Shown in pieces: positions 17,239 to 56,152 of a stretch of 64,000 bases of DNA. Made by a program: the position numbers and the translations under genes. How positions within the stretch are numbered: position 1 is the first letter of the stretch; each line of letters starts with the position of its first letter. Location: contig NZ_CP063169.1 of NCBI RefSeq assembly GCF_014960965.1, positions 3,505,581-3,569,580 on the forward strand, in the 5' to 3' direction. The notes below the pieces were generated by a model, which had not been told where the DNA came from, made no database searches, and was given only the letters and a program-made list of their open reading frames with translations. This stretch comes from Ruania alkalisoli (GTDB lineage: Bacteria; Actinomycetota; Actinomycetes; Actinomycetales; Beutenbergiaceae).

Positions 17239-20200
17239 TCAGTGCGTGGTGAAACCACTGGCCTTGTCCTCGAGCGGGATCGGGTTGATGCTCATCGTGT
17301 ACTCGGCATCTAGCGGTGCCGGATGTCCCGAACCATCACCGATGGTGAGGCCATCCTGACCCGCCACGTACGGCTCGATGAAGGCGTACCTGGCCGTCTG
17401 GGTGTTCGGCCCCGGCCGCGCCTGGAACATGAACCAGTCGGTGCCCTCGTGATCGGTGAAGGTGGGGCCCGTACCGGTCCCGACAACCTCATCGTTCTTG
17501 CTCATCACAGGGGTCGGGTTCTTCGCCCAGTTCGAGGCGTCCATCGGGTCTCCCCCCGTGTAGCGCAGGTATCCGATCGCGTAGTGGATGGTCCAGTAGC
17601 CGCTGGCGGAGTAGGCCATGTACACCTCGCCGTCGTGACCGTAGACGGCGGTCGCGCCCTCCACGACCTTCGGCCACCACATGTTGGGGTCGCTCGAGGA
17701 CTGGGCGTACCCGTGCTCCTCCCACTCATACTCCGGCACGGCGATGATGCTCGGCTCCCCGGTCAGCGTCCACGGATTGACCATGTGACTGAGGTTGAGC
17801 CTCTGATGGAACTCCGAGGTACCTCGATACGCTTCGGTCACGTACGAGATGTAGGTCTCGCCACCGATCCGGAACACAGACGTTCCGGCGACGAACTCAT
17901 CGGTGTTGAACTCGGGATCATCCTCGTTCGTAATGCGTTCCGGGACGTTCGCCGCACCGGTGACGGGGTTGCCCCACGTGCCCAGCAGATCATCGCCGTC
18001 GAGAGCCTTGAGCACGTACTGGCGCTGCCCCTCAGCTGCAGGATCACTCGGGTCCGTCGCGGACAGGAACAGGTACCACCCCGCGTTCTCCTCACCGACG
18101 TCCTCTGCGGTCAGGTGGTGGATCTCCGGTGACCACAGGTTCCGCATCTCGTCGGGGGCGAAGATCACCGACCCCACCGACTCGCTCATGTCCGAGGGGT
18201 TCGCGACCTTGTGCAGGGACAGTGTGGAGCCGCCGGTGGCGATGAAGTAGTACTGCCCCTCGTGGGTGAACATGTACGGATCGGCGGCACGGACCAGTGG
18301 GTTCGTGAACGTCAGGTCCCCCTCCGGCGCTGCCTGGGCGATCGCGGGGTCGACGTGGAGGGCACTGACCATGTCCCCTGCGAACCCCTCGCTCCCCAGG
18401 AGATCGGTGAGGTGCCCGAAGTCGCCGCCTTCGACGGTGAGGTCATAGGTGCCCGAGAGGACCGTGCTGCGGGACTTCGCCGGGGCGATCGTCGCCCAGA
18501 ACTCACCGCCGTTGACGGTGATGTCCGCGTCATAGTCGACGGCGTAGTCACTGCCATCCTCCTCGTAGACCGCGTAGACGCCGCGCATGAACGTGCCTGC
18601 GTTGATGGTCGCGGACGCTGATCCCGAGCTCTCACCACGATGCGAGAGGACGACCGGCCCGTAGAAGGTGCCCCCATCGACCTGGACGGAGATGTCTGCG
18701 CCGGCGGTCACCGCTCCGGTGTGGTCGGAACCGCCACGCAGGCCGGCCCACTGGCCGCCCTCGACCGTCACCGAGGTGGACGGCGCGGGCACCGTGTCGT
18801 TGCTTCCGCCGATGATGGTCAGGTAGGTCTCGCCACGACGGGTGAACTCGGTGTCGACGCCGGTGCCGATGGTCAGCTGTTGCCCCATGGCGTAGATGGC
18901 GCCGTCGACGGTCGGGGACTGCAGCAGCAGGTTCTCGAACGTGGTCGGGCCGCCCAGTCGCATGGCACCCTCGATCTGCAGTGCCGCTCCGTCGGCGGCG
19001 AAGTCGAGGTCGCCGTCGTCGGAGGTGAGCACGACGCGGGAGGTGTACTCGCCGAGGTCGTAGCCCTCCTCGACCGTGTAGGGGCCGGTCACCACCACGC
19101 GTCCGTCGCCGCTGAGCTCGGCGATCGCTGTACTCAGGTCGCCGCTGGCGTGGGTCGGGCTGCTGCCGTCACCGTCGCCGCCGGGAGCCAGGTAGACGAC
19201 GTCATCGTCGATGACGGTGGACACCTGGTCCGCGAGCTGGTCGACGAGGTCGTCCTCGGCTCCGGGCAGGCGCACGAGCACGCGTTCGGATCCGTCGGCA
19301 GCCTCCCAGCCCGAGATGCTGAGGTCCTTGATCTCCACGCTGCCGATCCGAAGGCGGGCGTCGGTCTCGACGCGCTCGAGCGCCGCGGTTGCGATCTCGC
19401 CGTCGATCAGCCGTGCGGTGAGCGAACCGAGCCCGGCTGCGGATGCGTGCAGGGTCTCGATCTCACCTCCGTCGATCGTCACCATCGCGTTCTCGACGTC
19501 GTAGGGCTGGTCGGTTCCGGCCCACACCTCTTCGATCTCGCCGCCGGCGATTGTGACATCCGTGCTGCCGGCGAAGGCGCTGTTCAGCCCGGAGATGCCC
19601 ACGACCCGGGCGATCTCGCCACTCTCGATCGTGATCTGGCTGTCATCGGCGATCGCGACCACGCTGACCTGACGGCCCTCCTCCATTGTCACCCCTGCGC
19701 CCAGCGCGAGGTGTGCGCCATCGGCTTGGAGCTCAAGGCTGCCAGCGTTCGCGAGCCGTACCCCTTCGAAGGTGACGTCCCGTGCCAGCGGTACCTCTGC
19801 GTCGTCGGGAAAGGCGATCGAAGCATCGCCGGCACCGGTAAACGTGATCTGCCCCGCTCCCGCGGCAAGCGTGCCGGGATCGACATCCCAGGAGACGTCG
19901 CCATGGACCGTGATGGCACCGCCGTCGGCGGCCAGTAGGCCCAGCGCGGCCTCGAGACTGCTGCACGGGTTCTCAGCGCTGCACTCGGCGCCGCCACCAT
20001 CGGCGCTGACGTGGACGTCCGCGGTGTTGATCAGGACGTCGAAGATCTCCTTGAGCGCGGCCACCTGATCGGCCGTGTAGTACTGCCCCGCGAAGACCAC
20101 CGTCCGGACCGCCGCAAATTCGAGGATCTGCTGGTGGCGACCTTCACCGCCCCAGGCGTTCTGAGCTTGAATGGCCTCGTAGTCCACCCCGTCGAGCGTC

Positions 20201-21069
20201 AGGTTGACGTCTTCGACGACGTTGTTGATGTCGATCGTGTTGATGTGCCCGCCGGTGAGTTCGACGTCTGCGCTGCCCACGATGTAGCGGGTCACATCGC
20301 CAGCAGTGTGCAGGGCACCCACGCGACCGCCGGTCATCGTGATCTCAGTGCTGCCTGAGTAATGGTTCTCGAGCGATGCCCCGAAAACCTCCTGGATGAC
20401 GCCGCCGTTGATGGTGATGTGCGAGGTCCCGGTGTAGGTCTGCGTCCCGACGCCCTTGCCTCGTGTGAAACCGGAGACCTTGTAGAAGGTGCCCGAGTTG
20501 ATCGTGATGTAGGAGTCGGCATCACGCACGGTGTCCTCATCGGAGGGCCCGTGATAGCCGCCGACGACGAACACTTGCCGTTTGCCCGGTGTGGGCACGC
20601 TCTCCATCGTGACCCCCTCACCGAAGGTGATCGGGTTCCAGTTCGCGGCGAAGACCGACCACTGTGAATGAACAACACCGAGATCTGCAAAGGTCGTGGG
20701 TCCGGCGAGGTTGTACTCGATGAAGGGCGTGTCCCCGAAGACCAGCCGGCCCGGATAGGTGTTCTCGCCGTCGGTACTCGTGACGAGAATCGGTTCGGTG
20801 TGGTCCGGCTCGACGAGCGTGGCATCGAGCGGGTAGTCACCCATGAGGACGACCCGGCCGCCGTCACCAGCCACAAGCGTCAGCGCTGCTTCGAGCGTCT
20901 GGACGGGCTCGGCCGGGTCGGTGCCGGGAGCGGCATCGTCGCCGGCGACGGCGTCGACGTAGGCGACCATCTGGCCGTCGGCGACTGCTGGTGGTGCTGC
21001 AGACAGTCCGCACAGAACCATGACAAGTGCGGTGAGGACCGCGGTGAACGACGTGGACACGCGAGTCAT
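17239..21069 (-). CDS. Secreted beta-helix repeat protein with C-terminal GH43 domain (paralogue 1)
   Basis: Predicted exported glycoside hydrolase of 1276 residues. A signal peptide (about 1-31, cleavage near PAVADG) is followed by three modules starting near residues 37, 352 and 621. Each opens with a pectate-lyase-like signature (YVDAVAGDDAAPGTDPAEP; VHVSADGGGAECSAENPCSS; VYLAPGGDGDGSSPT) and continues with short G-x-(I/V)-x-x-(I/V)-x-G beta-helix repeats such as ITINSGTFYKVSGFTRG. The GH43 propeller spans about 922-1276: general base in RAADPYMF (Asp near 929), WSPEIHHL, and proposed acid in KVVEGATAVYG. It is a close paralogue of 28122-31955. It is divergent from the ABC transporter; substrate unknown, probably an arabinose- or xylose-containing polymer. 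Confidence 0.85.
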   Translation of the reverse strand: MTRVSTSFTAVLTALVMVLCGLSAAPPAVADGQMVAYVDAVAGDDAAPGTDPAEPVQTLEAALTLVAGDGGRVVLMGDYPLDATLVEPDHTEPILVTSTDGENTYPGRLVFGDTPFIEYNLAGPTTFADLGVVHSQWSVFAANWNPITFGEGVTMESVPTPGKRQVFVVGGYHGPSDEDTVRDADSYITINSGTFYKVSGFTRGKGVGTQTYTGTSHITINGGVIQEVFGASLENHYSGSTEITMTGGRVGALHTAGDVTRYIVGSADVELTGGHINTIDINNVVEDVNLTLDGVDYEAIQAQNAWGGEGRHQQILEFAAVRTVVFAGQYYTADQVAALKEIFDVLINTADVHVSADGGGAECSAENPCSSLEAALGLLAADGGAITVHGDVSWDVDPGTLAAGAGQITFTGAGDASIAFPDDAEVPLARDVTFEGVRLANAGSLELQADGAHLALGAGVTMEEGRQVSVVAIADDSQITIESGEIARVVGISGLNSAFAGSTDVTIAGGEIEEVWAGTDQPYDVENAMVTIDGGEIETLHASAAGLGSLTARLIDGEIATAALERVETDARLRIGSVEIKDLSISGWEAADGSERVLVRLPGAEDDLVDQLADQVSTVIDDDVVYLAPGGDGDGSSPTHASGDLSTAIAELSGDGRVVVTGPYTVEEGYDLGEYTSRVVLTSDDGDLDFAADGAALQIEGAMRLGGPTTFENLLLQSPTVDGAIYAMGQQLTIGTGVDTEFTRRGETYLTIIGGSNDTVPAPSTSVTVEGGQWAGLRGGSDHTGAVTAGADISVQVDGGTFYGPVVLSHRGESSGSASATINAGTFMRGVYAVYEEDGSDYAVDYDADITVNGGEFWATIAPAKSRSTVLSGTYDLTVEGGDFGHLTDLLGSEGFAGDMVSALHVDPAIAQAAPEGDLTFTNPLVRAADPYMFTHEGQYYFIATGGSTLSLHKVANPSDMSESVGSVIFAPDEMRNLWSPEIHHLTAEDVGEENAGWYLFLSATDPSDPAAEGQRQYVLKALDGDDLLGTWGNPVTGAANVPERITNEDDPEFNTDEFVAGTSVFRIGGETYISYVTEAYRGTSEFHQRLNLSHMVNPWTLTGEPSIIAVPEYEWEEHGYAQSSSDPNMWWPKVVEGATAVYGHDGEVYMAYSASGYWTIHYAIGYLRYTGGDPMDASNWAKNPTPVMSKNDEVVGTGTGPTFTDHEGTDWFMFQARPGPNTQTARYAFIEPYVAGQDGLTIGDGSGHPAPLDAEYTMSINPIPLEDKASGFTTH

Positions 21070-21158
21070 GAAGGGCTCCCAAGGAGTGAGTTCTCGGCTC
21101 GGGCTACGCATCCACAACGTCGGTGGTGGGATGTTGGCGTAGCACGATATTTGTAAGA

Positions 21159-21173
21159 ACAACTAACTGTTGT
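21159..21173. promoter_or_regulatory. Short palindrome upstream of GH43 paralogue 1
   Basis: ACAAC-TAACT-GTTGT is a 15-bp inverted repeat with 5-bp arms, 90 bases before the minus-strand start at 21069 and inside a locally AT-rich stretch (21141-21186). It could be an operator, but no regulator can be assigned. Confidence 0.3.
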
Positions 21174-21342
21174 GTTTGTTCGAATGTCACCGTAGCGGGA
21201 TGATGTGCCCAGGTCAACGGTTCAACTCCGACCACCCGACCACCAAGCGACTGGGCGACCCGGCGAACTGGGTCATCCTGAGATCTCACCTGCGTCGTCT
21301 CGAGCATGGGCGGCTACGCCGACCCAGGAAGTCTGGTCACTA

Positions 21343-21358
21343 AAATGTCCATACATTT
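21343..21358. promoter_or_regulatory. Candidate GntR operator in the divergent GH43/ABC promoter region
   Basis: AAATGT-CCAT-ACATTT is a perfect 16-bp inverted repeat in the 532-bp gap between GH43 paralogue 1 and the ABC operon. Its ATGT-N4-ACAT core recurs at 35815-35826 and 37704-37715 in the catabolic cluster. The rest of the gap, apart from the ABC promoter at 21506-21535 and the palindrome at 21159, shows nothing I can interpret. Confidence 0.5.
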
Positions 21359-21505
21359 AGTCACTCGTTCGTGCGCGACGACACGAAGTGCCATCACCCA
21401 GGGGGCCGCGTGCACAAGATCCACGGCCGACGCCCGGCATCTGGCTACTGAGCCAGCTCGACGACTCACAGCATCCATCTGTAGAAATGTAAGTAACACC
21501 GGACA

Positions 21506-21535
21506 TTGACACAACCTGTCAGGCAGGGCTAGCCT
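21506..21535 (+). promoter_or_regulatory. Sigma70-type promoter of the sugar ABC operon
   Basis: TTGACA (21506-21511) and TAGCCT (21530-21535) are separated by 18 bp. This predicts a transcript start near 21542 and a leader of about 60 bases ending in a strong AAGGAGG ribosome-binding site (21587-21593) before the GTG at 21602. Confidence 0.65.
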
Positions 21536-21601
21536 GCGTGAAGCACCGTTTGGGAGAGCGCCACCAGTGGCTCTCACTCATAAAACAAGGAGGTTGTCAC
21601 G

Positions 21602-22960
21602 GTGATCACTAGCAATCAGAGGCTCAGCCGACGCGGTCTGCTGGGTGGCGCACTCGGTCTTACGGCAGGGGTGGGCGCGCTCTCGGCGTGCGGTCCGGGC
21701 GATGGCGGCGGAAGCGGCGACGAGCCGCCCGAGGACATGGGCTCGGCAGAAGAAGGTCGGCTCGTCGTGTGGGGCGGTCTGCCCCCGGAGATGGGCCCGC
21801 AGGCGCTCGTGGACGCGTTCACGGCGAAGTACCCAGACATCGAGGTCGAGTACGTTCGCTTCGTCAACAACGCCGAGGGCATCCTGAAGCTCGACACAGC
21901 GCTGCAAGGCGGAGTTCCGATCGACGTCTTCTTCTCTTACGGCACGGTCGATGTCGTCCGTCGCGCGCAGGCCGGGCTCGCTCTGGACCTCACTGATCTG
22001 GCCCGAGAGGACGATCTCGCTCAGGTCTTCGTGCAGGATGAGCCGATCAGCACGCTGATCGACGGAAAGCTCTACTCGATCCCGACGACCCACTGGCCAC
22101 AGTTCGTCGTGCTCAACCAGGACGCGATGGAATCGGCGGGCATCGAGATCCCGTTCGACTGGACGGTGGAGGATTACCACCGGGTGGCACGGGAGTTCAA
22201 GAGCGCCGGATTCGACGTGGGTGCCTACCACCCGCCCCGCATGGCTTCCACGTCCTTGGGTGGTGACTACATCTACAAGAACGGCGGCCAGGAGTCCAAC
22301 CTCGACGATCCCTTGTTCAAGCAGGAACTGGAGCTCATCCTGGCGATGGAAGACGACGGATCGATCTTCACCCAGGAGCGGATCACCGCCGAACAGCTCG
22401 GCGGCTACGTGCAGAACTACTTTGTCGACGGCACGTTCCCGATGTACATCGACGGCACGACCGCGCTACGGTTCCTCAAGAACCTCGACGAGTACCCGCA
22501 CGACTTCCGCACCACGTTCAGGCCCTACCCAGCGCCGACTGCCGGTGCGGACTACTTCAATCCGGGCGTTCGAGGCGACGATGTCCAGATCTCCTCGAAG
22601 TCTCAGTACCCGTCGGCGGCCTGGACGTTCGTGAAGTTCTGGATCGACGAGGGCGCGAACCACATGTCACCGGCAGGCAAGGTGTCGCCGTACCAGTTCG
22701 ACAACCCGACCGACGAGATGATGGATGCGCTGTTCGGGCCGGAACGGGACCGGCTGTTCAATGTGGACGATTTCCACGAGACGTTCTTCGTTCCCGAGCC
22801 TCCGTTGTCGGTCCGAAGCATCACGACCGCCTACACCGAGATCGCCAGCCTCAAGTCGCAGATCGAAGACGAGATCCGGCTTCGGACGAAGTCGGTCGAC
22901 GACGGTATCGCCGAGATGAAGCAAGAGGCAGACGCGGCTATCGCGGACTGGCTCGGCTGA
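21602..22960 (+). CDS. Sugar ABC transporter substrate-binding lipoprotein
   Basis: Extracytoplasmic binding protein of the MalE-like (family 1) class, 452 residues. The N-terminus has paired arginines (SRRGLLGGALG) and a lipobox (ALSACG at about 30-35), suggesting a lipoprotein that may use the Tat route. The mature protein has the typical opening RLVVWGGLPPEMGPQALVDAF and PDIEVEYVRF, with aromatic ligand-pocket residues further on. The GTG start has AAGGAGG 8 bases upstream. It is the first gene of an operon with two permeases and two cytoplasmic proteins; ligand inferred to be an oligosaccharide from the GH43 proteins. Confidence 0.9.
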   Translation: MITSNQRLSRRGLLGGALGLTAGVGALSACGPGDGGGSGDEPPEDMGSAEEGRLVVWGGLPPEMGPQALVDAFTAKYPDIEVEYVRFVNNAEGILKLDTALQGGVPIDVFFSYGTVDVVRRAQAGLALDLTDLAREDDLAQVFVQDEPISTLIDGKLYSIPTTHWPQFVVLNQDAMESAGIEIPFDWTVEDYHRVAREFKSAGFDVGAYHPPRMASTSLGGDYIYKNGGQESNLDDPLFKQELELILAMEDDGSIFTQERITAEQLGGYVQNYFVDGTFPMYIDGTTALRFLKNLDEYPHDFRTTFRPYPAPTAGADYFNPGVRGDDVQISSKSQYPSAAWTFVKFWIDEGANHMSPAGKVSPYQFDNPTDEMMDALFGPERDRLFNVDDFHETFFVPEPPLSVRSITTAYTEIASLKSQIEDEIRLRTKSVDDGIAEMKQEADAAIADWLG

Positions 22961-22972
22961 GGAGAGTTCTGC

Positions 22973-23959
22973 GTGACTCCCCTGATCGAAGACACTGCGA
23001 AGCCGGGCCGCGCGGGAACCGACTCCCACGACGGCTCGGCTCCGCCATCGGCTACCACGAAACGCTCATCCCGCCTGGTGAATGGTTACAAGTGGTGGAT
23101 TCCGTGGGTGTTCCTGCTACCAACCATAGTCGCGGTTCTTGCGTTCCTGATCGTCCCACTCACCGCGGGTCTGTTCATCGCCTTCACCGAGTGGAACGTC
23201 GTCTCCGGGATCGGAGGCATCAGATGGGTGGGGTTCGGCAACTTCCAGGAGCTGTTCCAGGACGACATGTTCTGGTCCTCGGCCGTGCGGACCCTGTTCT
23301 ACGCAGGAGTTGGGACGCCACTCGCCGTCACTTGCGGGATGTTTCTTGGGCTCGCGCTGAATCGGCCAATGCCTGCCAGAGGCGTCATTCGGGCGATCTT
23401 CTTCCTGCCGTCGCTGGTCAACGTCATCGCGGCCGGAACGGTCTGGCTGACACTCCTCAACCCCAGATCCGGGATGGTCAATCAGTTCCTGCGCGCAGTC
23501 GGCCTCGACAATCCGCCGGGCTGGTTCACGTCGCAGCAGTGGGCCCTACCGGCGATCGTGCTGATGTCAGTCTGGGTCAGTGCCGGCTATGTGGCGATCC
23601 TCATCATCGCCGCCCTCCAGGACCTTCCTACGGAGTTGTACGAGTCCGCGAAGCTGGACGGTGCCGGCACTATCCGGCAGTTCACCACCATCACGTTCCC
23701 GGGTCTGGTTCCCGTCCTGACATTCCTGCTGATCACATCCTTCATCGGCAGATCGCAGGGCTTTGGCCTGATTCAGTTCATGACCAGCGGAGGACCCGGC
23801 GATGCGACGACGGTCCTCTCCTACTACATGTATGAGGTGGGATTCCATTGGTACCGCTTCGGGTATGCCGCATCCATCGGTGTGATGAGCATGCTGGCCG
23901 TCCTGGCGTTGTCGATCGCGCTGTTCAAGCTGCAACGGGGACGAGGGCTGTACACATGA
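22973..23959 (+). CDS. Sugar ABC transporter permease, MalF type
   Basis: Inner-membrane permease of 328 residues with a hydrophilic N-terminus of about 40, six hydrophobic segments and the EAA loop LPTELYESAKLDGAGTIRQF near residue 225, the site that contacts the ATPase. The GTG start at 22973 lies 12 bases after the binding-protein stop, with GAGGAG just before. No ATP-binding subunit is encoded in the operon, so a shared MsiK-type ATPase elsewhere is likely. Confidence 0.9.
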   Translation: MTPLIEDTAKPGRAGTDSHDGSAPPSATTKRSSRLVNGYKWWIPWVFLLPTIVAVLAFLIVPLTAGLFIAFTEWNVVSGIGGIRWVGFGNFQELFQDDMFWSSAVRTLFYAGVGTPLAVTCGMFLGLALNRPMPARGVIRAIFFLPSLVNVIAAGTVWLTLLNPRSGMVNQFLRAVGLDNPPGWFTSQQWALPAIVLMSVWVSAGYVAILIIAALQDLPTELYESAKLDGAGTIRQFTTITFPGLVPVLTFLLITSFIGRSQGFGLIQFMTSGGPGDATTVLSYYMYEVGFHWYRFGYAASIGVMSMLAVLALSIALFKLQRGRGLYT

Positions 23960-23969
23960 GGAGCATGCG

Positions 23970-24857
23970 ATGAGCACTACCACCGCACTGGCAGCTCACC
24001 ACGCACCGCGCCCCGGCCTCATCCGACGTCAGCGCAAGGAGCGGATGGCCTGGATCGTTCGCGGCGTCCTGATGTCACTACTTGCCCTGCTGTTCCTGGT
24101 CCCGTTCGCGTGGATGGTTTCGTCCTCGCTGAAGCAGAACCTCGACATCTTCGAGATCCCGCTCCGATGGATCCCGAACCCCCTCGTGTGGGACAACTAC
24201 GCCGACGTCTGGACCGGCGAGCGGTCGATGCTGCGCTACTTCAGCAATTCCACGGTCGTGGTTGTTGCGACGATCGTGGGCGAGTTGGCCGTGGTGTCGC
24301 TCGCTGGCTACGCGTTCGGGCAACTACGTTTCAAGGGCCAGAACGCACTGTTCCTCGCGTTTCTGGCTACCTCGATGGTTCCTGCTCAGCTCCTGCTGGT
24401 CCCACGGTTCATGTTCTTCCGCCAGATCGGGCTCTACGACACGCTGTGGGCGCTGATCCTGCCCGGCCTCGCATCGGTGTTCGCGACGTTCCTGCTGCGG
24501 CAGCATTTCGCCTCGGCACCGCGTGAGCTCGGGGAGGCAGCCCGGATCGATGGTGCCGGTGAGGGCCGGATCTTCTGGTCGATCTATCTCCCGATGGCGA
24601 GGCCAGCTCTCGCGGCCTTGGCCATCCTGATCTTCGACTCGACTTGGAACGACTACGAGAGCGCACTCATCATGATCACGGATGAGGCGAAATACACGGT
24701 GCCGCTGGGATTGACCCGGTTCATGTCCGAGGACGGCACGGTCTCGATGGGCCCGGCGATGGCCGGCTCGGTCTCCTCGCTCATCCCGGTTCTGGTGATC
24801 TTCCTGATCTTCCAGCGGCACTTCCTGCGTTCGATGGCCCGCGTGGGCCTCCGGTGA
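23970..24857 (+). CDS. Sugar ABC transporter permease, MalG type
   Basis: Second permease, 295 residues, with six hydrophobic segments and the EAA motif RELGEAARIDGAGEGRIFWS near residue 190. A basic N-terminus (IRRQRKERMAW) precedes the first membrane helix. The ATG at 23970 follows the MalF-type stop by 10 bases with GAGGAGC upstream. It pairs with the preceding permease to form the translocation pore. Confidence 0.9.
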   Translation: MSTTTALAAHHAPRPGLIRRQRKERMAWIVRGVLMSLLALLFLVPFAWMVSSSLKQNLDIFEIPLRWIPNPLVWDNYADVWTGERSMLRYFSNSTVVVVATIVGELAVVSLAGYAFGQLRFKGQNALFLAFLATSMVPAQLLLVPRFMFFRQIGLYDTLWALILPGLASVFATFLLRQHFASAPRELGEAARIDGAGEGRIFWSIYLPMARPALAALAILIFDSTWNDYESALIMITDEAKYTVPLGLTRFMSEDGTVSMGPAMAGSVSSLIPVLVIFLIFQRHFLRSMARVGLR

Positions 24858-24861
24858 GTCG

Positions 24862-25845
24862 ATGAGAGCCGTCGAGCACCAGGAAACCGCCGTCTCGGGC
24901 TGGCCCGCACTCGGACTGTCGAACGAGCGGGTCGAACTGACCGTCGTGCCGGGCAAGGGCGCGGACATCACGTCGATGATCGACCGCTCCACGGGGACCG
25001 AGCTGATGTGGTCCACCCGGTGGGGGCTTCGCCCACCGACGGCACTCGCGCCTCCCGGCAACCCGGAGGCGGAGGCTCTCGACCGGTCCGGCGGCGGCTG
25101 GCACACACTCTTCCCGAACGCCGGTCGGGCCTGCGTGGAGCAGGGGGTCGAGTGGGGTTTTCACGGCGAGGCCTGGCTCGCCCCGTACGAGTGCGCACCG
25201 ACCGCTGCAGGGCTCCGACTGCACACCACATTGGCGCGCAGCCCGTTCGCTGTGGTCAAGGACATCACCCTCGACGGCGATCGCGTGCGAGTGACCGAGA
25301 CCGTCACCCATATCGGGGCGCACCCGGTCGATGTGATGTGGTGGCAGCACCCGACCTTCGGCGCGCCACTCATCGGCCCGGACACCACCATCAGCATCAC
25401 CGGCTGTTCCGTTCACCCGGACATGCCGGACGACATACCCGGCACCGCGCCGCCGCCCCGTTGGCCCGAACACCACCCACCGGGCGCCGAACCGGTGGAT
25501 CTGTCGCGGTTGACCGCAGCACGCGTGGGCGGCAGCCGGCTGGCGTTCCTCGGCGAGTTCGACAGCGAGCAGGTCTGCGCGCAGGTCCGCAACCCCACCC
25601 TCGGCCTCGGTGTCGACGTGGAGTGGTTGGCCAGTGACTTCCCCTACGCGTGCTACTGGTACGAGGCGGGCGGGCGACTCGGCTACCCCTGGTACGGGGC
25701 CGCGCACGGGTTCTCCATCGAGCCGGCGACCGGCTACCCGAGCGGCCTGGCGCGAGCGCGGGCACTCACCGGCACAGAGCTGTCCATCGGCCCGGAGGAG
25801 ACAGTGAGCAAGTCCGTCACCGTACGCGTGCGCTCCTCGCGCTAG
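24862..25845 (+). CDS. Aldose 1-epimerase-like (galactose-mutarotase fold) protein
   Basis: Cytoplasmic protein of 327 residues with the mutarotase-like beta-sandwich pattern: LGLSNERVELTVVPGKGADITSMIDRS at the start, HTLFPNAGRACVEQGVEWGFHGE (conserved His/Glu region), and WWQHPTFGAPL. It resembles the aldose 1-epimerase/DUF4432 group, whose members interconvert anomers or bind sugars. It starts 4 bases after the MalG-type permease stop, so it is in the transport operon. It could prepare the imported sugar for the next enzyme; the substrate is not known. Confidence 0.78.
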   Translation: MRAVEHQETAVSGWPALGLSNERVELTVVPGKGADITSMIDRSTGTELMWSTRWGLRPPTALAPPGNPEAEALDRSGGGWHTLFPNAGRACVEQGVEWGFHGEAWLAPYECAPTAAGLRLHTTLARSPFAVVKDITLDGDRVRVTETVTHIGAHPVDVMWWQHPTFGAPLIGPDTTISITGCSVHPDMPDDIPGTAPPPRWPEHHPPGAEPVDLSRLTAARVGGSRLAFLGEFDSEQVCAQVRNPTLGLGVDVEWLASDFPYACYWYEAGGRLGYPWYGAAHGFSIEPATGYPSGLARARALTGTELSIGPEETVSKSVTVRVRSSR

Positions 25846-25880
25846 TCCAGCCAAGCCGAACTCTGAGAGGTAGCAATTCC

Positions 25881-28043
25881 ATGCACGTCCTGACCAATGC
25901 CGACGGGTCCTTCGGCCTGAGCGTGACCGCACCTGGCGGAGCGTCCGCAGCACAGACGGCGCCGCTGCGGGCCACGGTCTGGCCCGGGCAGGCGGATGCC
26001 GAGCCGGTCACCGTCTCCGGCGGTTACGAGTCGCTGCGCGGCACCGGCGGCGAGTGGCTCGGGACGGGCCGCCTTGAGGCCACGAGCGGCGCAGAGCTGG
26101 AGTTCGCCGATCGCTGGACACTCGAGGAGGAGACAATGCGCTTGCGTCGCGAGGTGCGGGTGCACGGCGATGCTTCGGGCGGTTTCACCAGCGTCGCCGC
26201 GCTGCGCGTCGTGGACGCCCGGCCGTGGCCGCAGATGGAGTGGTTCGCGCCCGGAATGATCTACGGCAACTTCGACCACATGCGCGACAACTCTTTCGGT
26301 GCCGGCAACTACTACGAGCCCGGCAACTACACCGTATGGATCCGTGAGGACCGGATGCCCGCGCCGCTGCTGGCGACCCGGCTTCCCAATGGCGCGACGC
26401 TCGCGGTCCTGAACTCGTCACCGGACTCGCGGACGACGGCAGCCGAGAGCCAGAGTTTCTCCCGAGAGCCGATGGTCGGTGCGGAGTTCCGCTTCGGCGC
26501 CATTCTCGCCGAGGAGCGGCCGGATGGCACCACGCTCGGCTATGCGGTCCCCGGCTCGGAGGGCACGCTGAGCTACGGACTGAAGGGGGGCGGCGAGACG
26601 GGCGCGACGGCGGAGCAACAGTGGCGGCACCGGTTCAACCCGCTCACGGATGGATTCACGCAACGTTACGAGGTGACGTTCCGGTTCGACCGCGCAGCCG
26701 GCACCAACGAGCTGATCACCCGCTCGTGGCGGTGGGCCTGGAGTGTGCTCGACCCGCGTCCGAACCCGCAGGACATCCACACCATGCGCACGACCATGGT
26801 CGATGTGCTTGCCGAGAACTTCATCCAGGTGAACGACCGCGCCGGTGTGCGGTTCGTGACGCCGGCCCGGCCCCTCGGCGGCCGGGAGCACCCGGACTCG
26901 AAGGTCGTCCTCGGCTTTACCGGCTACGCGCTGGGTTGCGCCGAGATGATGCTGGTCGAGGCGGCACGGGATCCGGAGTCGCAACGCAGCCAGGTGCTCG
27001 TGCGGAACGCTGAAAGGGCGATCGATTCCTTCCTGCGCAGGCCGGTCGCGCCGCCGCTCGACGAGGGGTTCATGCTGGGCTCTGGCGAGCCTGTCGCGTC
27101 TACGTGGCCGACAGGTCGCATGCTGACCAGCGAGCAGTCGATCTACCTCCGCAGCTTCACCGACGACATGAAGTCACTCCTGCGTGCGTACGAGCGCGAA
27201 CAGGCAGCGGGCCGGGAGCGCACGGCCTGGCTCGACTGGGTCCGTACCTTCGCGGATTGGCTGCTCACCCAGGAGCAGCCCGGGGGCGGCTTCCCCCGCT
27301 CGTGGCATGCATTGACGGGTGAGCTGTTCTCGGCCTCGACCACCGGCACCTACAACGCCGTGCCGCTGTACGCGCAGCTGTACCGGATCACCGGCCACGA
27401 GCCCTACCGGAGCGCCGCCGTGCGTGCTGGTGAGTTCGCATGGGCATCCGACGACCACGCACACAGCCACGGCCGGTTCACCGGTGGCACAATCGACAAT
27501 CCGGATGTGGTCGACAAGGAGGCCGCCACCATCGCCCTGGAGGCGTACCTCGCGCTTCACACGCTCACCGGAGACGAGGTCTGGCTGGATCGGGCACGCA
27601 TTGCTGCGGACGTGGCCGAGACCTGGATGTACATCTGGAACGTGCCGATGCCCGAGGACGCCGACGCCGAGGACCTCGACTGGAAGCACGGTGCACCGAC
27701 GGTCGGCATCCAGCTGATCGCCACCGGCCACTCGTTGAACGACGCGTACATGGCCTGGGACGTCGAGAGCTACGCGCGGCTGGCGGGTGCGACGGGCGAC
27801 TCCCACTATCTGGACGTGGCACGCATCCTCCTGCACAACACCAAGGCCATGGTGGGCACGCCGGAGGATCATCGCGGCACGCGGGGCCCCGGATGGCAGC
27901 AGGAGCACTATTCCTTCACCCTCCCTCGTGGGTTCGGCCGTCACCGCGAGTGGCTGCCGTGGGTCACGGTCAGCCATCTGCGCGGGATCAACGACCTGAT
28001 CGACTACGACGCCGAGCTGTACGACGAGCTCGCGACAGGCTGA
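25881..28043 (+). CDS. Putative alpha-barrel carbohydrate-active protein of unknown function
   Basis: Not assigned to a family with confidence. It has 720 residues and no signal peptide. The N-terminal 280 residues look like a beta-sandwich (many alternating strands, with Asn/Tyr/Gly-rich GNFDHMRDNSFGAGNYYEPG). The C-terminal 430 residues have helix-pair repeats of an (alpha/alpha)6 barrel (ALGCAEMMLVEAARDPESQ, DWLLTQEQPGGGFPRSWHA, ATIALEAYLALHTLTGDEVW, LDRARIAADVAETWMYIWN). This two-domain plan is seen in several intracellular glycosidases and polysaccharide lyases. It follows the mutarotase-like gene with GAGAGG before the ATG, so it probably degrades the imported oligosaccharide. Confidence 0.7.
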   Translation: MHVLTNADGSFGLSVTAPGGASAAQTAPLRATVWPGQADAEPVTVSGGYESLRGTGGEWLGTGRLEATSGAELEFADRWTLEEETMRLRREVRVHGDASGGFTSVAALRVVDARPWPQMEWFAPGMIYGNFDHMRDNSFGAGNYYEPGNYTVWIREDRMPAPLLATRLPNGATLAVLNSSPDSRTTAAESQSFSREPMVGAEFRFGAILAEERPDGTTLGYAVPGSEGTLSYGLKGGGETGATAEQQWRHRFNPLTDGFTQRYEVTFRFDRAAGTNELITRSWRWAWSVLDPRPNPQDIHTMRTTMVDVLAENFIQVNDRAGVRFVTPARPLGGREHPDSKVVLGFTGYALGCAEMMLVEAARDPESQRSQVLVRNAERAIDSFLRRPVAPPLDEGFMLGSGEPVASTWPTGRMLTSEQSIYLRSFTDDMKSLLRAYEREQAAGRERTAWLDWVRTFADWLLTQEQPGGGFPRSWHALTGELFSASTTGTYNAVPLYAQLYRITGHEPYRSAAVRAGEFAWASDDHAHSHGRFTGGTIDNPDVVDKEAATIALEAYLALHTLTGDEVWLDRARIAADVAETWMYIWNVPMPEDADAEDLDWKHGAPTVGIQLIATGHSLNDAYMAWDVESYARLAGATGDSHYLDVARILLHNTKAMVGTPEDHRGTRGPGWQQEHYSFTLPRGFGRHREWLPWVTVSHLRGINDLIDYDAELYDELATG

Positions 28044-28079
28044 CGGCCACCCTGACTGAGAACTGTGACCAGGCGTGAG

Positions 28080-28099
28080 CGCACGCATCGACGCGTGCG
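28080..28099. other. Hairpin between the alpha-barrel gene and GH43 paralogue 2
   Basis: CGCACGC (28080-28086) and GCGTGCG (28093-28099) form a 7-bp stem with a 6-base loop, 36 bases past the upstream stop and 22 before the next start. It could attenuate transcription or protect mRNA ends within the operon. Confidence 0.5.
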
Positions 28100-28121
28100 C
28101 CTCGATCGATATGGAGTTGCG

Positions 28122-31100
28122 ATGACGAAGAAGTCGTTCAGTCCCCGGGTGCTGGCCCTTGTGGCCGCGTTGATGTTGCTGTTCGCGGGCCTACCGAGTG
28201 CGCCCGCGACCGCGACGCATGACGTGCTCTATGTCAATGCCAGCAGCGGTAGCGACTCGGCCACCGGCCAGTCCCCCTCGTCACCCTTGAGGACGATCAA
28301 GGAGTCCGTCCGGCGGATGGCGGACGATGGCGGCACGATCGTCGTGATGACGACGCATCCGATCCCGCTCAACATGACCGAGCCTGCGCACAGCGGTCAG
28401 ATCACGATCACCAACACGATCGGTTCCACGACCTATCCGGGCGCCCTGGAGTTCCAAGGTGCGTTCCGTGAGTACAACCTCTCGGGCCCCACCACGTTCA
28501 CGAACATCGAGGTACGGGCATCGGAGTGGGCCATCTTCGCGGCCAACTTCCATCCGATCACCTTCAATCAAGGCGTCGTCACCGTGAATCCGGTCTCGCC
28601 GTCCGTGCGACGGGTGTTCGTCCTCGGTGGACACCACGCACCCACATCGGGTGACACGCTCCTGAGCGCGGACTCCCACATCACGATCCGATCCGGGACC
28701 TTCTACAAGGTCGTCGGCTTCACGCGTGCGATGGGCAACGGGACACGGACGTACACGGGTACGTCCCACATCGACATCTCGGGGGGCGACATCGCTCACG
28801 TCTTCGGAGCGTCAATCGAGAACCACTACTCCGGCAGTACCGATATCAGCGTCACCGGGGGCGTCGTCGGCGCCCTGCATACCGCCGGTGACGGCTCTCG
28901 GTACCTGCTCGGTTCAGCGGCGCTGTCGCTGACCGGCGGGACGGTTGGCACCATCGACGTGAACAACGTGGTCGAGGATGTCGATCTCACATTAGCGGGA
29001 ACGGCCTTCACGACCATCCAGGCCAGCAACGCCAGCTCCAAGTGGACCGTCAACGAGGCGATCCGCGAAGCGGCCGGCGTCCGGACGGTGGAGTACGCGG
29101 CGCAGTACTACACGGCTGCCCAGGTCGCCGCTGTGCGTTCGATCTTCGACGAGGCCGCCAACATCGGGCGGGTCTACGTCTCCGCCGGTGGCAGCGGATC
29201 CGCATGCACGCAGGCGGCGCCGTGCGCGAGCCTGTCCGCTGCGGTAGCCCAGCTCGCCTCGGACGGCGGCACGGTAGAGGTCAGCGGTTCGGTGCCGTGG
29301 AACGTCTCTGCGGCCACGCTCGACGCCGGCCTTGGGCGTGTCGTCCTCTCCGGCGTCTCCTCGGCTCAGCTCACCTTCGCATCGAGCACGACTCTGCACA
29401 CGAGCAGAGACCTGACGTTCGAGAACCTGACGCTGGCGAATGCCGGCGACCTCGTCCTGCAGGCAGATGGTTCGAGCCTGGAGATCGGCAGCGGTGTGAC
29501 GACGTCGAACCCGTCGGCTACCCAGCTGATGGGCGTCAGCGACGGGGCGGAGGTCGTCGTCGGCTCAGGCCAGTTCCAGAAAGTCACCGGGATCAGCGGG
29601 CTGTCGGCCGACTTCACCGGCTCCACGTCCGTCACGGTCAGTGGTGGCACCGTGACCGAGCTGTGGGCCGGAACCGACCAGTCCGCCTACGACGTCGCCA
29701 CGAGCCTGCTCACCGTGTCCGGGGGCACCGTGACCACCCTGCACGCCTCGGCGGCACGCACGACGGAGTCGCTCACCGCGCGGTTCCTGGGCGGCACCGT
29801 CACCACGCTCCATCTCGACGACGTCGATGCCGACGCGCACGTACGCCTCGGTACCACCTCCGTGGGAAGTGTCACGACCGCGGGATGGGCGCCGTCATCG
29901 AGTGCGACCCGCAGCCTGATCGAGCTCCCGGGAGCCGATGCCGGCACCATCGCCGCGATCGAGACCGCCTTCACCGAGATCACCCAGGACCGCTACCTGT
30001 ACTTCGCCCGGGGCGGAACCGGAGACGGCCTCAGCCCGCAGAACCCACTCGGAACCCTCAGCGCGGCCGGCAGCGCTCTCGGCGGCCCCGGTCACGTGGT
30101 CCTGGTCGGCAACTACACCATCCGCAACGACTCGACCATGGCCGCCCACGCCTACCCGATCGAGCTGACCTCGCACGACGGCGACATCGACTTCCGCACC
30201 AACGGCGCGAACATGTCGATCGAGGCAGCCTTCCGGCTCGGCGGTGAACTCGCCATCGATCGGATCACGTTGCGTTCGCCGACGATCTCCGGTGCCGTGT
30301 ACGGGATGGGTTTGCCGTTGACGATCGGCGCGGACGTCCAGACCGAACTGTCCCGGCGGGGAGACACCTATCTCAGCCTGGTCGGCGGACGGCACGACAC
30401 GCTCGCCGCACCGGCGATCACGCTCTCGGTGGCATCGGGGCACTGGAACGGCCTGCGCGGCGGCTCCGATGCCACCGGCGCCGTCACGACCGCGATCCAG
30501 ACCGACGTGGAGATCACCGACGGCGTGTTCGACGGCCCCGTGGCGCTGGCACACCGGGGTGAGGGATCCGGCTCGATCGTCGCGGACGTCTCGGGCGGCG
30601 TCTTCCGTGCCGGTCTGTACGCCGTACTGGAAGAGGACGGCTCAGCCTACGCGGCCGACTACGACGTGGACCTGACGATCACCGGGGGTGACTTCTGGGG
30701 CATGATCGCACCGGCCCGCTCTCGTACCACCGACCTCAGCGGCAGCTTCGATGTCGAGGTCACCGGAGGCACCTTCGGGCATCTCACCGATCTCAGCGGT
30801 AGCGACGACTACGCCGGAGACATGACAAGCTCGCTGACCGTCGGCCCGGCAGTGGACCTGAATGCCCAGCCCACCGGCAACGTCACCTTCACCAATACGC
30901 TGCGAGAAGCAGCCGACCCGTACATGTTCACCCATGACGGCCAGTACTACTTCCTCTCCACCGCGGGAAGCACGATGCGGCTGCACAAGGTCGCGAACCC
31001 GTCCGACCTGCCGTACTCGATCGGTTCGGTGATCTTCGCTCCCAGCAACCTGGAGAACCTCTGGTCTCCGGAGATCCACTTCCTCAGCGCCGCCGACGTC

Positions 31101-31955
31101 GGCGCGGCCAACGAGGGCTGGTACCTGTACCTATCGGCCAGCGATCCGAACGACCCGGCTGCGGCCGGCCAACGGCAGTACGTGCTGAAGGCACTCGACG
31201 GCGATGACCTGCTCGGCCGCTGGGGCAACCCCGTCACCGGACAGGTGAATGTCCCGGAGCGGATCGTCAACGCCGACAATCCGGACTTCAACGTCGATGA
31301 GTTCGTCGCCGGCATCTCCATCATGCGCGTGGCCGGCGATACCTACATCACCTACGTCGCAGAGGAGGGCCGTGGAACCTCGGCCTTCCACCAGACGATC
31401 AATCTCAGCGCCATGGACAACCCGTGGACACTCTCCGGGACCCCGAGCGTGATCACCCAGTCCGAGTACGCATGGGAGGAGGTCGGCTACGGGCAGTCCA
31501 TCAACAACCCGGATCTCTGGTGGCCGAAGGTGGTCGAGGGGGCGACCGCCGTCTACGGCGACAACGGCGAGGTCTTCATGGCCTATTCCGCCAGCGGGTA
31601 CTGGACGACGGCCTACGCGATCGGCTACCTGCGTTACACCGGGGGCGACCCGTTCGACCCCGCCAACTGGGTCAAGAACCCGACGCCGATCATGTCCAAG
31701 AACGAGTACGTCATCTCCACCGGCACCGGGCCCACGTTCACCGACCACGACGGCAACGACTGGTTCACGTACCAGGCCCGTCCCGGCACCAACCGCGGCG
31801 CCGCCCGGGAGGCCTTCATCGAGCCCTACGTAGCGAGCGGCACCACGTTGAGCATCGGCAACGGTACGGGGCATCCCGCCCCGCTTTCGACCGAGTACAC
31901 GATGACCATCAACCCGATCGCACTGGCCGACAAGATCAGCGCCTTCGTGCCCTGA
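28122..31955 (+). CDS. Secreted beta-helix repeat protein with C-terminal GH43 domain (paralogue 2)
   Basis: Second member of the pair, 1277 residues. A signal peptide (about 1-32, cleavage near ATATHD) precedes three modules opening with LYVNASSGSDSATGQSPSSP, VYVSAGGSGSACTQAAPCAS and LYFARGGTGDGLSPQNP. Beta-helix repeats follow, including ITIRSGTFYKVVGFTRAMG, closely matching paralogue 1. The GH43 domain begins near 922 with REAADPYMFTHDGQYYF (Asp near 930), then WSPEIHFL and KVVEGATAVYG. TGGAG lies before the ATG at 28122. It is the last gene of the transport operon, whereas paralogue 1 is divergent from it. The duplicates may attack different linkages or positions of one polymer. Confidence 0.85.
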   Translation: MTKKSFSPRVLALVAALMLLFAGLPSAPATATHDVLYVNASSGSDSATGQSPSSPLRTIKESVRRMADDGGTIVVMTTHPIPLNMTEPAHSGQITITNTIGSTTYPGALEFQGAFREYNLSGPTTFTNIEVRASEWAIFAANFHPITFNQGVVTVNPVSPSVRRVFVLGGHHAPTSGDTLLSADSHITIRSGTFYKVVGFTRAMGNGTRTYTGTSHIDISGGDIAHVFGASIENHYSGSTDISVTGGVVGALHTAGDGSRYLLGSAALSLTGGTVGTIDVNNVVEDVDLTLAGTAFTTIQASNASSKWTVNEAIREAAGVRTVEYAAQYYTAAQVAAVRSIFDEAANIGRVYVSAGGSGSACTQAAPCASLSAAVAQLASDGGTVEVSGSVPWNVSAATLDAGLGRVVLSGVSSAQLTFASSTTLHTSRDLTFENLTLANAGDLVLQADGSSLEIGSGVTTSNPSATQLMGVSDGAEVVVGSGQFQKVTGISGLSADFTGSTSVTVSGGTVTELWAGTDQSAYDVATSLLTVSGGTVTTLHASAARTTESLTARFLGGTVTTLHLDDVDADAHVRLGTTSVGSVTTAGWAPSSSATRSLIELPGADAGTIAAIETAFTEITQDRYLYFARGGTGDGLSPQNPLGTLSAAGSALGGPGHVVLVGNYTIRNDSTMAAHAYPIELTSHDGDIDFRTNGANMSIEAAFRLGGELAIDRITLRSPTISGAVYGMGLPLTIGADVQTELSRRGDTYLSLVGGRHDTLAAPAITLSVASGHWNGLRGGSDATGAVTTAIQTDVEITDGVFDGPVALAHRGEGSGSIVADVSGGVFRAGLYAVLEEDGSAYAADYDVDLTITGGDFWGMIAPARSRTTDLSGSFDVEVTGGTFGHLTDLSGSDDYAGDMTSSLTVGPAVDLNAQPTGNVTFTNTLREAADPYMFTHDGQYYFLSTAGSTMRLHKVANPSDLPYSIGSVIFAPSNLENLWSPEIHFLSAADVGAANEGWYLYLSASDPNDPAAAGQRQYVLKALDGDDLLGRWGNPVTGQVNVPERIVNADNPDFNVDEFVAGISIMRVAGDTYITYVAEEGRGTSAFHQTINLSAMDNPWTLSGTPSVITQSEYAWEEVGYGQSINNPDLWWPKVVEGATAVYGDNGEVFMAYSASGYWTTAYAIGYLRYTGGDPFDPANWVKNPTPIMSKNEYVISTGTGPTFTDHDGNDWFTYQARPGTNRGAAREAFIEPYVASGTTLSIGNGTGHPAPLSTEYTMTINPIALADKISAFVP

Positions 31956-32712: not shown

Positions 32713-33501
32713 TCAGTACGCGTCGTCCAGCATGGCATCGATCGAACCATCGATCGACTGACCGCCGTCGACCGTGATCGTCTGACCCACGATGAACCGA
32801 CTCTTGCTCTTGTCTGCCAGGAAGATCGCAAGCTCGGCGATGTCGGCAGGTTCTCCACCACCACCGAACGGGATCTTGCGGTTGAAGCCGTTGAGGTCGC
32901 GCTCGGAGTAGCGATCGAGCGCCTTGGTATGGATCAGCCCCGGAGCGATGCAGTTGACGTTGATGCCGTGCGCGATCAGCTCGACTCCGAGGGACTTGGT
33001 CAACATGTTCAGGCCCGCCTTGGCGGCCGAGTACGGCAGCGCCTTGCGGCGCACCCAGGTGACGTCACCGTGGATCGAGGAGATGTTGATGATCGCTCCC
33101 GCCACGTTCTGGGCGATCATCGCCCGCGCCGCGGCCTGGGAGCCGTAGGTGGCGGCGCTCAGGTTCAACGCGATCTGGCTGTCCCAGTAGTCGGTCGGCA
33201 TGTCGACGAAGCCGCCCGGCGGCATCCGCAACGCTCCCCCCGCATTGTTGACGAGCACGTCGATCCGGCCGAAGCGTTCGACGAAGCGCTCGACCATGCC
33301 GCGGGCCTGGTCGGCGTCGGCCACATCGGCGGCGAAGACGTCCGCCTCGACACCCAGCTCACGGCAATGCTGCGCGATCCGTTCGGCGTCCTCACCTGAG
33401 GACCGGTGATTGATCCCCACGGCGTATCCCTCGCGGGCGAACGCGAGCGCGCAACCGGCGCCGATTCCGCGTGAAGCCCCTGTGATGAGCGCAGCGCTCA
33501 T
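32713..33501 (-). CDS. Short-chain dehydrogenase/reductase
   Basis: Classical SDR of 262 residues: the nucleotide motif TGASRGIGAGCALAFAREG, NNAGGALRMPP, the active-site YSAAKAGLNMLTK, and a C-terminal GQTITVDGGQSIDGS. It probably oxidises or reduces a sugar or cyclitol hydroxyl with NAD(P). Two ATGs exist: 33510 abuts AGGAG with almost no spacing, whereas 33501 has AGGAG about 9 bases upstream, so 33501 is preferred. Last gene of the minus-strand arm; its start is close to the stop of the MBL-fold gene. Confidence 0.85.
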   Translation of the reverse strand: MSAALITGASRGIGAGCALAFAREGYAVGINHRSSGEDAERIAQHCRELGVEADVFAADVADADQARGMVERFVERFGRIDVLVNNAGGALRMPPGGFVDMPTDYWDSQIALNLSAATYGSQAAARAMIAQNVAGAIINISSIHGDVTWVRRKALPYSAAKAGLNMLTKSLGVELIAHGINVNCIAPGLIHTKALDRYSERDLNGFNRKIPFGGGGEPADIAELAIFLADKSKSRFIVGQTITVDGGQSIDGSIDAMLDDAY

Positions 33502-34382: not shown

Positions 34383-34386
34383 GTCC

Positions 34387-35658: not shown

Positions 35659-35811
35659 GCCGATGCACCTCTCACACGCTTGATATGACTCCAGCTGAGC
35701 GTCCGGCCTCGTACGGCCGAACGGCGTCGCACAGCCCAGCAGGGCACGACAGCGATCGCGGCGAAGCGTCACTGCTCGTCGACACACCCCGAGCCTAGAT
35801 GGTCATACGTT

Positions 35812-35829
35812 AATATGTCAACACATATT
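35812..35829. promoter_or_regulatory. Candidate GntR operator upstream of the minus-strand catabolic arm
   Basis: AATATGT-CAAC-ACATATT is a perfect 18-bp inverted repeat in an AT-rich patch between the Gfo/Idh gene and the GntR gene. The core TATGTCAACACA recurs, with one change, over the iolC start at 37677-37690, and the spacing matches 21343-21358. It is the best candidate binding site of the GntR protein. Confidence 0.6.
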
Positions 35830-37688: not shown

Positions 37689-37715
37689 AGATACATACTA
37701 ACAATGTGCTAACAT
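37677..37715. promoter_or_regulatory. Paired candidate operators between iolC and the aldolase gene
   Basis: Two sites in the 33-bp gap and at the iolC start: CTGT-GTTG-ACAT at 37677-37688, the near-complement of the 35812 palindrome, and ATGT-GCTA-ACAT at 37704-37715. Their centres are 27 bp apart. Bound repressor would cover the starts of both divergent transcripts. A TTGACA at 37682-37687 may be the plus-strand -35, with no clear -10. Confidence 0.5.
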
Positions 37716-37721
37716 GCGGTC

Positions 37722-42459: not shown

Positions 42460-42529
42460 GGTCACCTGCAGCAACCCTTCAGTCCCGCCACCTCAGCCCG
42501 TCACTGCGCACCCCCAAGGGAGCTATGCC

Positions 42530-54873: not shown

Positions 54874-54882
54874 CGGGCTAGT

Positions 54883-56064: not shown

Positions 56065-56108
56065 GGCGGGCTCCTCGTCGCAGCAGGAAGGTGATGGCCT
56101 GTCGTTGT

Positions 56109-56152
56109 TTGTTGCGCTGCACAACTTATCGGCTTGTTTCGGCTAAGGTCAA
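56109..56152 (-). promoter_or_regulatory. xylA promoter with overlapping XylR-type operator
   Basis: On the minus strand a -35 TTGACC (56152-56147) and a -10 TAAGTT (56128-56123) are 18 bp apart, giving a start near 56116. The inverted repeat TTGT-N8-ACAA (56109-56124) covers the -10 and start point, a good repressor site. On the plus strand TAAGGT (56144-56149) may be the -10 of a leaderless xylR transcript. Confidence 0.6.

Follow-up and report, generated by a model that had tools for sequence, protein, structure and literature searches.

What is the role of two exported proteins of nearly identical length and layout that flank one sugar import operon in the actinobacterium Ruania alkalisoli? 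The operon lies in a stretch of 64,000 nt of contig NZ_CP063169.1 (the window), which belongs to the one complete 4.45 Mb genome of the host (G000), and the two proteins, here called TwinA (P0001) and TwinB (P0002), have 1276 and 1277 residues, respectively. We hold with slightly better than even confidence that the twins are secreted multimodular glycan-degrading enzymes forming the extracellular end of a dedicated, conserved catabolic island. The coordinates of all features are collected in Table 1.

An interpretation made earlier from the letters of the window (the sequence-only reading) had assigned to both proteins the same order of parts, i.e. a signal peptide, three beta-helix-like modules and a C-terminal GH43 domain, and had placed one of them divergent from the operon and the other last in it. 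Both descriptions were borne out, the second by the gene order. TwinA and TwinB occupy open frames at 17239-21162 (minus strand) and 28065-31955 (plus strand), in which the ATG opening a Sec-type signal peptide by eye is found at 21069 and 28122, respectively. Both genes are intact, and the proteins align end to end in BLASTP with 693 identities over 1256 positions (55%) and 6 gap positions. The GH43 family (PF04616) was the only Pfam family detected in either twin at E<=1, and both exceeded its cutoff of 32.2 bits. Identity between the twins was 71% in the GH43 part versus 49% in the remainder. TwinB has the same GC content (66.5%) as the neighbouring genes; a promoter and terminator scan 3′ of it found none, and a genome search found no third copy in the host. 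The architecture is thus real and unusual ("1.28-kDa" in the title of the sequence-only reading is a slip), and it is a variant of the multimodular GH43 theme, its twin aspect being peculiar to this genome. Searches of the open-licence literature in PMC for this layout and for DUF4432 listed no paper whose title or abstract start describes it. Among published systems, the ultra-multimodular GH43 arabinanase AbnA is likewise large and extracellular and carries two new uncharacterised families of carbohydrate-binding modules (CBMs), which the abstract does not describe as beta-helices (PMC9110388).

The GH43 domain is where the enzymatic interpretation has to be judged. By HMMER and Foldseek its closest solved chains were 3akf, 9nxj/9nxg, 5m8b and 3k1u; the top-ranked solved relatives were arabinofuranosidase or xylosidase-type GH43s, and identity in the best ten Foldseek matches was 20-24%. 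The nearest described subfamily is GH43_26, represented by AtAbf43C (9NXG/9NXJ) and SaAraf43A (3AKF), with which the twins share the GH43 fold and the aligned base Asp and acid Glu. Characterised members of GH43_26 are 49-63% identical to AtAbf43C (PMC12493170), compared with the 20-24% between the twins and their nearest solved chains, which places the twins outside it. They further differ by a Gly at the position of the pKa modulator, by insertions, and by having three beta-helix modules in place of the CBM42 that is fused to the catalytic domain of AtAbf43C (PMC12493170).

In GH43 enzymes the conserved catalytic residues are, in AtAbf43C numbering, the base D168, the pKa modulator D283 and the acid E344, and Ala mutants of AtAbf43C at any of the three had no activity on p-nitrophenyl arabinofuranoside (pNPAra; PMC12493170). 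The base Asp and acid Glu, aligning with D168 and E344 at positions counted by hand, were retained in all 16 full-length members of the twin clade. The pKa-modulating Asp, a loss that the sequence-only reading had missed, was replaced by Gly in 19/19 clade members (16/16 full-length and 3/3 further ones, two of the latter without detected modules). HMMER pairs this Gly with the Asp of 9nxj, 9nxg (D283) and 5m8b, while 3akf and 3k1u are gapped differently. Among six sister GH43s that these gut genomes also encode, four carried Asp and two (L070) Ser. Given the inactive Ala mutant of AtAbf43C, hydrolysis by the twin GH43 is not assured. The AlphaFold2 (AF2) model of the TwinB GH43 is poor, with several stretches below 50 in predicted local distance difference test (pLDDT). 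Either the domain functions in spite of the lost pKa modulator, or another acid stands in for this residue, or the domain is no normal hydrolase. Since conservation between the twins is higher in GH43 than in the rest of the protein, an active, altered GH43 appears more likely than a non-hydrolase.

At nearly even chance, the domain would be an active hydrolase that draws a substitute acid from elsewhere, for example from the loop preceding the lost Asp, and it would then constitute a new subfamily with a new specificity; this is a sharper, compatible form of our preferred interpretation. Just before the Gly site the clade has an extra loop that bears an acidic residue in most members (alignment, by eye), the acid not being strictly invariant, and no reliable model of that part of the active site is available. 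There is a precedent in the GH43_24 exo-beta-1,3-galactanases such as Pc1,3Gal43A, which also lack one canonical carboxylate, there the base Asp rather than the pKa modulator, and are active with Gln as the base (PMC7939473). Moreover, the clade includes a lone GH43 (L076:5170-6213), and the neighbourhood is kept across genera, as expected of a working enzyme.

A separate difference concerns a GTGP motif in the TwinB GH43 (window approximately 31.6 kb). By eye, most clostridial GH43 members have a His there that seemingly aligns with H408 of AtAbf43C, whereas the actinobacterial members and one copy from Paenibacillus lack it; the H408A mutant of AtAbf43C showed activity that was not lowered (PMC12493170).

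The approximately 890 residues preceding the GH43 domain matched no Pfam family at E<=1 and came near the cutoff of no NCBIfam model, and a profile of 14 modules (A4) searched against the sequences of PDB at E<=10 returned no beta-helix and one spurious match. A known Pfam or PDB domain in this region was therefore rejected, in agreement with the earlier placement of the modules outside known families. Modules 1, 2 and 3 each match identical stretches of relatives in cross-searches, indicating that they are copies of one module. For TwinB residues 97-1296, modelled by AF2 from 10 sequences and excluding the first 96 residues (approximately 46 of them in module 1), strand-rich repeats were predicted across the modules with pLDDT mostly 75-95, which is consistent with the beta-helix-like nature proposed before. 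Among others, His59, Arg171, Asp226, Arg229 and Asn251 (TwinB module 1 numbering) were invariant in 14/14 aligned modules, four of which came from proteins without GH43 by blastp; such residues fit a ligand site built into the module. A comparable arrangement is CBM89 of CapGH10 (7JVI) from a gut bacterium, a large beta-helix xylan-binding module that is likewise N-terminal to the glycoside hydrolase domain (PMC8810776). The twins differ from it in having three tandem copies, and the search of A4 against PDB, in which the inclusion of 7JVI is unconfirmed, found no sequence relationship.

Does this module bind glycans, perhaps as the processive polymer track that the sequence-only reading had offered as one option, or is it itself catalytic, which was the other? 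Seven of eight Pfam-scanned module proteins without GH43 contained GDSL, VanY, M14, GH31 or dockerin domains, with dockerins in 6/8. Because of these partnerships the module follows an accessory pattern, and it is probably a non-catalytic glycan-binding unit rather than a second catalytic site; GH43s of the clade also occur without detected modules. Several results weigh on the other side. The PDB sequence search gave no relative, and among the best 50 Foldseek matches no beta-helix was recognisable by title and no CBM89 appeared, so the module fold stands on the AF2 prediction. The eighth protein (L064) has Cu_amine_oxidN1 as its sole Pfam domain and none that is catalytic, and single-module proteins exist (L068); the module could therefore be an enzyme. 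If the modules were a new lyase or hydrolase, and GH43 had turned into a sugar-binding domain, the lost Asp would be explained, and its universal replacement by Gly among the clade members seen, the invariant charged residues of the modules, the module-only exported proteins, and the lack of any other secreted enzyme recognised in the island would all be accommodated. Right-handed beta-helices are, in addition, used by glycoside hydrolase clan N, CE8 and several lyase families (PMC8810776). We nevertheless judge this unlikely: the modules accompany unrelated catalytic domains, they show no similarity to the profiles of beta-helix polysaccharide lyases or GH28 in Pfam at E<=1, and the retention of base and acid in 16/16 members together with the stronger conservation of GH43 is unlike a decaying domain.

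Distribution was assessed by searching genome contigs with two N-terminal peptide patterns, a search that reaches relatives carrying either pattern. Eight loci were found, in Occultella, two Microbacterium, Pseudactinotalea, Jiangella, Paenibacillus and two gut Clostridia metagenome-assembled genomes (MAGs), and all eight, found by the N-terminal region alone, also encode a GH43 of the twin clade. The distribution was patchy: at E<=1e-60 the protein was carried by 4/24 genomes of the host's family, by 1/396 genomes of its phylum (G000 itself), by 11/196 genomes of the family of one gut MAG and by 2/104 genomes of the family of the Paenibacillus genome; in the phylum of the latter a module search gave 1/348, the Paenibacillus query genome. 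First-look candidates were scored in part in the surveys of the host phylum, the gut-MAG family and the Paenibacillus family and phylum, and copy numbers are lower bounds. A plasmid search returned 22 records, each with less than 80% coverage of the query, and the ten matches listed corresponded to the GH43 domain only (27-31% identity). In the two gut MAGs, with 32 and 53 matches at E<=0.001, the module is freely combined: GH43 domains occur with no detected module or with one to three, and module proteins lacking GH43 reach 2814 residues. Proteins of 1235-2814 residues from these gut Clostridia (L061, L062, L063 and L071, genomes G014/G015) combine several modules with GDSL esterase, VanY or M14 peptidase, and dockerin domains, which suggests a possible undescribed cell-wall or glycan machinery. 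In L068 (3868-6478), two neighbouring single-module proteins of 430 and 398 residues lie beside a DUF5107-TPR protein. At both clostridial loci with a full-length gene, a type I 3-dehydroquinase homologue is encoded directly 5′ of it (L017:9190-9978 and L018:9237-10031).

Among the seven actinobacterial carriers compared, i.e. the host and six others (Occultella G008, Microbacterium G009 and G011, Pseudactinotalea G010, Jiangella G012, and G016 from the host's family), only the host has two full-length copies, as it does within its family; G009, G011 and G012 have one each, and the second match in G009 is a GH43 domain alone. The notion of the twin pair as a conserved unit was thus rejected. 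So was a recent random duplication, a possibility that had been raised against the pair: in the tree (midpoint root), TwinB lies outside the seven other actinobacterial sequences, those of Microbacterium included, with 100/100 support, and Paenibacillus branches next. Based on this position TwinB would be either an old paralogue that the other carriers have lost or a gene acquired from a lineage outside the sample.

What is conserved in place of the pair is a larger island, which the sequence-only reading had overlooked by ending the unit at 31955; it extends over approximately 17239-44023. In the comparison of the carriers, in which matches of 40% identity and above were listed and permease G was compared in the first five loci, the genes for the substrate-binding protein, permease F and the DUF4432 protein were present in 6/6 other carriers beside the enzyme gene and the catabolic blocks. 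The short-chain dehydrogenase/reductase (SDR), the metallo-beta-lactamase (MBL)-fold hydrolase, the Gfo/Idh/MocA dehydrogenase and the GntR regulator were likewise found in 6/6 (72-89% identity), as were the Zn-dehydrogenase, the TIM-barrel epimerase, the second Gfo/Idh/MocA and the second SDR (62-86%). The enzyme gene comes first and co-directional with the importer in G008, G010, G012 and G016, and last, after DUF4432, in both Microbacterium genomes. The host window fills both places, with TwinA at the head in inverted (divergent) orientation and TwinB at the tail, between the SDR gene and the gene for P3, a 720-residue protein discussed below; in L011 and L013, P3 runs straight into the SDR gene.

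The island is not uniform, and this counts against our preferred interpretation. P3 was found at 77% identity or more in three of the six other carriers (G008, G010 and G016), with only a distant P3-like protein (approximately 28%) in both Microbacterium genomes and Jiangella. The IolC-like kinase is present in 5/6, without a match in G010, and DUF2090 in 4/6, without a match in Microbacterium. Methylmalonate-semialdehyde dehydrogenase (MMSDH) follows the block only in G008 (54%) and G016 (82%); in Microbacterium it sits upstream of the importer (55-57%), and in the stretch examined for G010 and G012 it was not seen.

The linkage with importer and cytosolic sugar-metabolism genes also bears on a third explanation, in which the twins would serve mainly in adhesion or as scaffolds on the cell surface, their GH43 having degenerated. 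Long beta-helix stalks would suit such a function, clostridial members have C-termini resembling S-layer homology (SLH) domains by eye, and Pfam detects SLH domains in the open reading frames immediately 3′ in L017 and L018. Set against the conserved linkage and the two retained catalytic residues out of three, we regard this explanation as quite improbable.

The operon content had been described as an ABC importer, a mutarotase-like protein and a 720-residue alpha-barrel protein (P3), and Pfam concurs, with SBP_bac_1, two BPD_transp_1, DUF4432, and weak GH76 and GH127 matches. No importer ATPase was seen among the genes scanned. P3 exceeds the gathering threshold of GH76 barely (26.6 versus 25.9 bits) and contains an Asp-Asp pair within the GH76-like region. 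Foldseek ranked GH76 at the top and also returned epimerases; because the model is poor (pLDDT 45.8), these matches support at most an (alpha/alpha)6 barrel. A Foldseek comparison with viral models gave weak matches with low template-modelling (TM) scores.

In the proposed sequence of events, the three tandem beta-helix modules would hold the enzyme on its polymer and the GH43-type beta-propeller would trim glycosyl units in an exo-acting manner. The released sugar or oligosaccharide would be brought in by the ABC importer and cleaved by a cytosolic P3 hydrolase, with the DUF4432 mutarotase-like protein also processing it. Gfo/Idh/MocA and SDR dehydrogenases and the MBL-fold hydrolase would oxidise the sugar, and the inositol-pathway-like kinase, aldolase and MMSDH would feed the product into central metabolism, the whole island being governed by one GntR regulator. 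The order of these steps is suggested by gene content alone. The architecture, the relationships, the conserved neighbourhood, the distribution of the candidate operator and the pattern of catalytic residues were observed, while glycan binding, hydrolysis, the sequence of steps and regulation are inferred. Arabinofuranosides would fit the GH43 relationship; another sugar is at least as likely, because neither an arabinose isomerase nor a ribulokinase was over cutoff among the frames scanned. Outside the island, approximately 9 kb past its end, 53398-56124 encodes a xylose isomerase (TIGR02631, over cutoff) and a xylulokinase (TIGR01312, at cutoff).

The catabolic genes recall known pathways. 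Like the inositol (iol), L-glucose/L-galactose (lgu) and levoglucosan pathways, the island combines Gfo/Idh/MocA dehydrogenases, a TIM-barrel epimerase-like protein, an IolC-like kinase, the aldolase-like DUF2090 and MMSDH, and an inositol-pathway-like block of this kind (36699-44023, with IolM/IolG-like dehydrogenases) is common to carriers of several genera. NCBIfam was run on 18 frames (10 + 8, a selection of the open reading frames) in the part of the window from 32.7 to 56.1 kb, and of the ten frames of the block only MMSDH was over cutoff among the matches listed. A canonical iol cluster was rejected, since neither IolB nor IolD was among the matches listed for the 18 frames. The lgu pathway employs a dehydratase, a 2-keto-3-deoxygluconate (KDG) kinase and a 2-keto-3-deoxy-6-phosphogluconate (KDPG) aldolase (PMC12632266), and it was rejected as no match to any of these stood out among the island frames scanned.

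A palindrome may tie the halves of the island together. The motif AWATGTNNNNACATWT occurs at two places only in the 4.45 Mb genome, at window positions 21343 and 35813, both within the island, and in none of 100 shuffles of the window. In the gap between the Gfo and GntR genes the palindrome is present exactly or with one mismatch in 6/7 carriers (not in G009), and mismatched forms lie near importer or enzyme genes in L012, L014 and L015; the scan of the relatives used AAATGTNNNNACATTT, allowing two mismatches at most, rather than the final form of the motif. An operator role is weakened by three observations: the control, the pattern reversed, has one place in the genome, so that roughly one site per genome may plausibly arise by chance; the scan detected no form of it ahead of the enzyme genes of L011, L013 and L086; and the motif was picked after both sites had been seen. 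What speaks for function is that both sites lie inside the island. A second palindrome, ACAACTAACTGTTGT, lies at 21159-21173 in the TwinA promoter region, and L011 and L013 have forms of it with one or two mismatches ahead of their enzyme genes.

Table 1. Positions in the window of the twin genes, their domains, the importer operon, the catabolic genes and the candidate operators.
Feature	Position	Strand	Basis
TwinA, 1276 aa: signal peptide, three beta-helix modules, C-terminal GH43	17239..21069	-	ORF, Pfam, BLASTP
TwinA GH43 (PF04616, 53.1 bits), residues 952-1271 of P0001	17350..18309	-	Pfam
TwinA modules 1-3	18328..20979	-	boundaries inferred by alignment to TwinB
Palindrome AAATGTCCATACATTT, candidate operator, between the divergent TwinA and importer genes	21343..21358	.	
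ABC importer substrate-binding protein (SBP_bac_1)	21602..22960	+	Pfam
ABC importer permease (BPD_transp_1)	22973..23959	+	Pfam
ABC importer permease (BPD_transp_1)	23970..24857	+	Pfam
DUF4432 mutarotase-like protein	24862..25845	+	Pfam
P3, 720 aa, (alpha/alpha)6-type glycosidase-like, weak GH76/GH127	25881..28043	+	Pfam; no signal peptide by eye
TwinB, 1277 aa: signal peptide, three beta-helix modules, C-terminal GH43	28122..31955	+	ORF, Pfam, BLASTP
TwinB module 1	28215..29159	+	AF2, cross-matches, module alignment
TwinB module 2, least conserved by eye	29160..29984	+	alignment, AF2, cross-matches
TwinB module 3	29985..30869	+	alignment, AF2, cross-matches
TwinB GH43 (PF04616, 57.4 bits), residues 949-1254 of P0002	30909..31826	+	Pfam
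Gly codon at pKa-modulator position (D283 of AtAbf43C), TwinB	31311..31313	+	alignment
SDR oxidoreductase	32716..33501	-	
MBL-fold hydrolase (lactonase role a guess)	33507..34433	-	
Gfo/Idh/MocA dehydrogenase (frame as opened, true start probably internal)	34387..35787	-	
Palindrome ATATGTCAACACATAT, candidate operator, beside the regulator gene	35813..35828	.	
GntR-UTRA regulator, 73% identical to Pfam-typed L012 gene	35874..36584	-	
PfkB kinase, IolC-like, under NCBIfam cutoff	36699..37688	-	
DUF2090 aldolase-like	37722..38630	+	
Zn-dehydrogenase, TIM-barrel epimerase/isomerase, Gfo/Idh/MocA (IolG-like), SDR, MMSDH (frames as opened)	38324..44023	+	

In its widest form our proposal is tentative, and we give it clearly less than even chance: the twins would define a new subfamily of GH43 in which glycosides are hydrolysed although the canonical pKa-modulating Asp is absent, together with a new family of tandem beta-helix glycan-binding modules and a so far undescribed pathway that oxidises an unusual sugar of plant or microbial origin, all within one island in scattered Actinomycetota. 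The twins are a candidate for a natural departure from the rule of three carboxylates in GH43, and their modules for a new family of beta-helix binding modules, which in a group of gut Clostridia has multiplied and occurs alongside dockerins and cell-wall enzymes, while the island offers a compact genetic system for finding the substrate.

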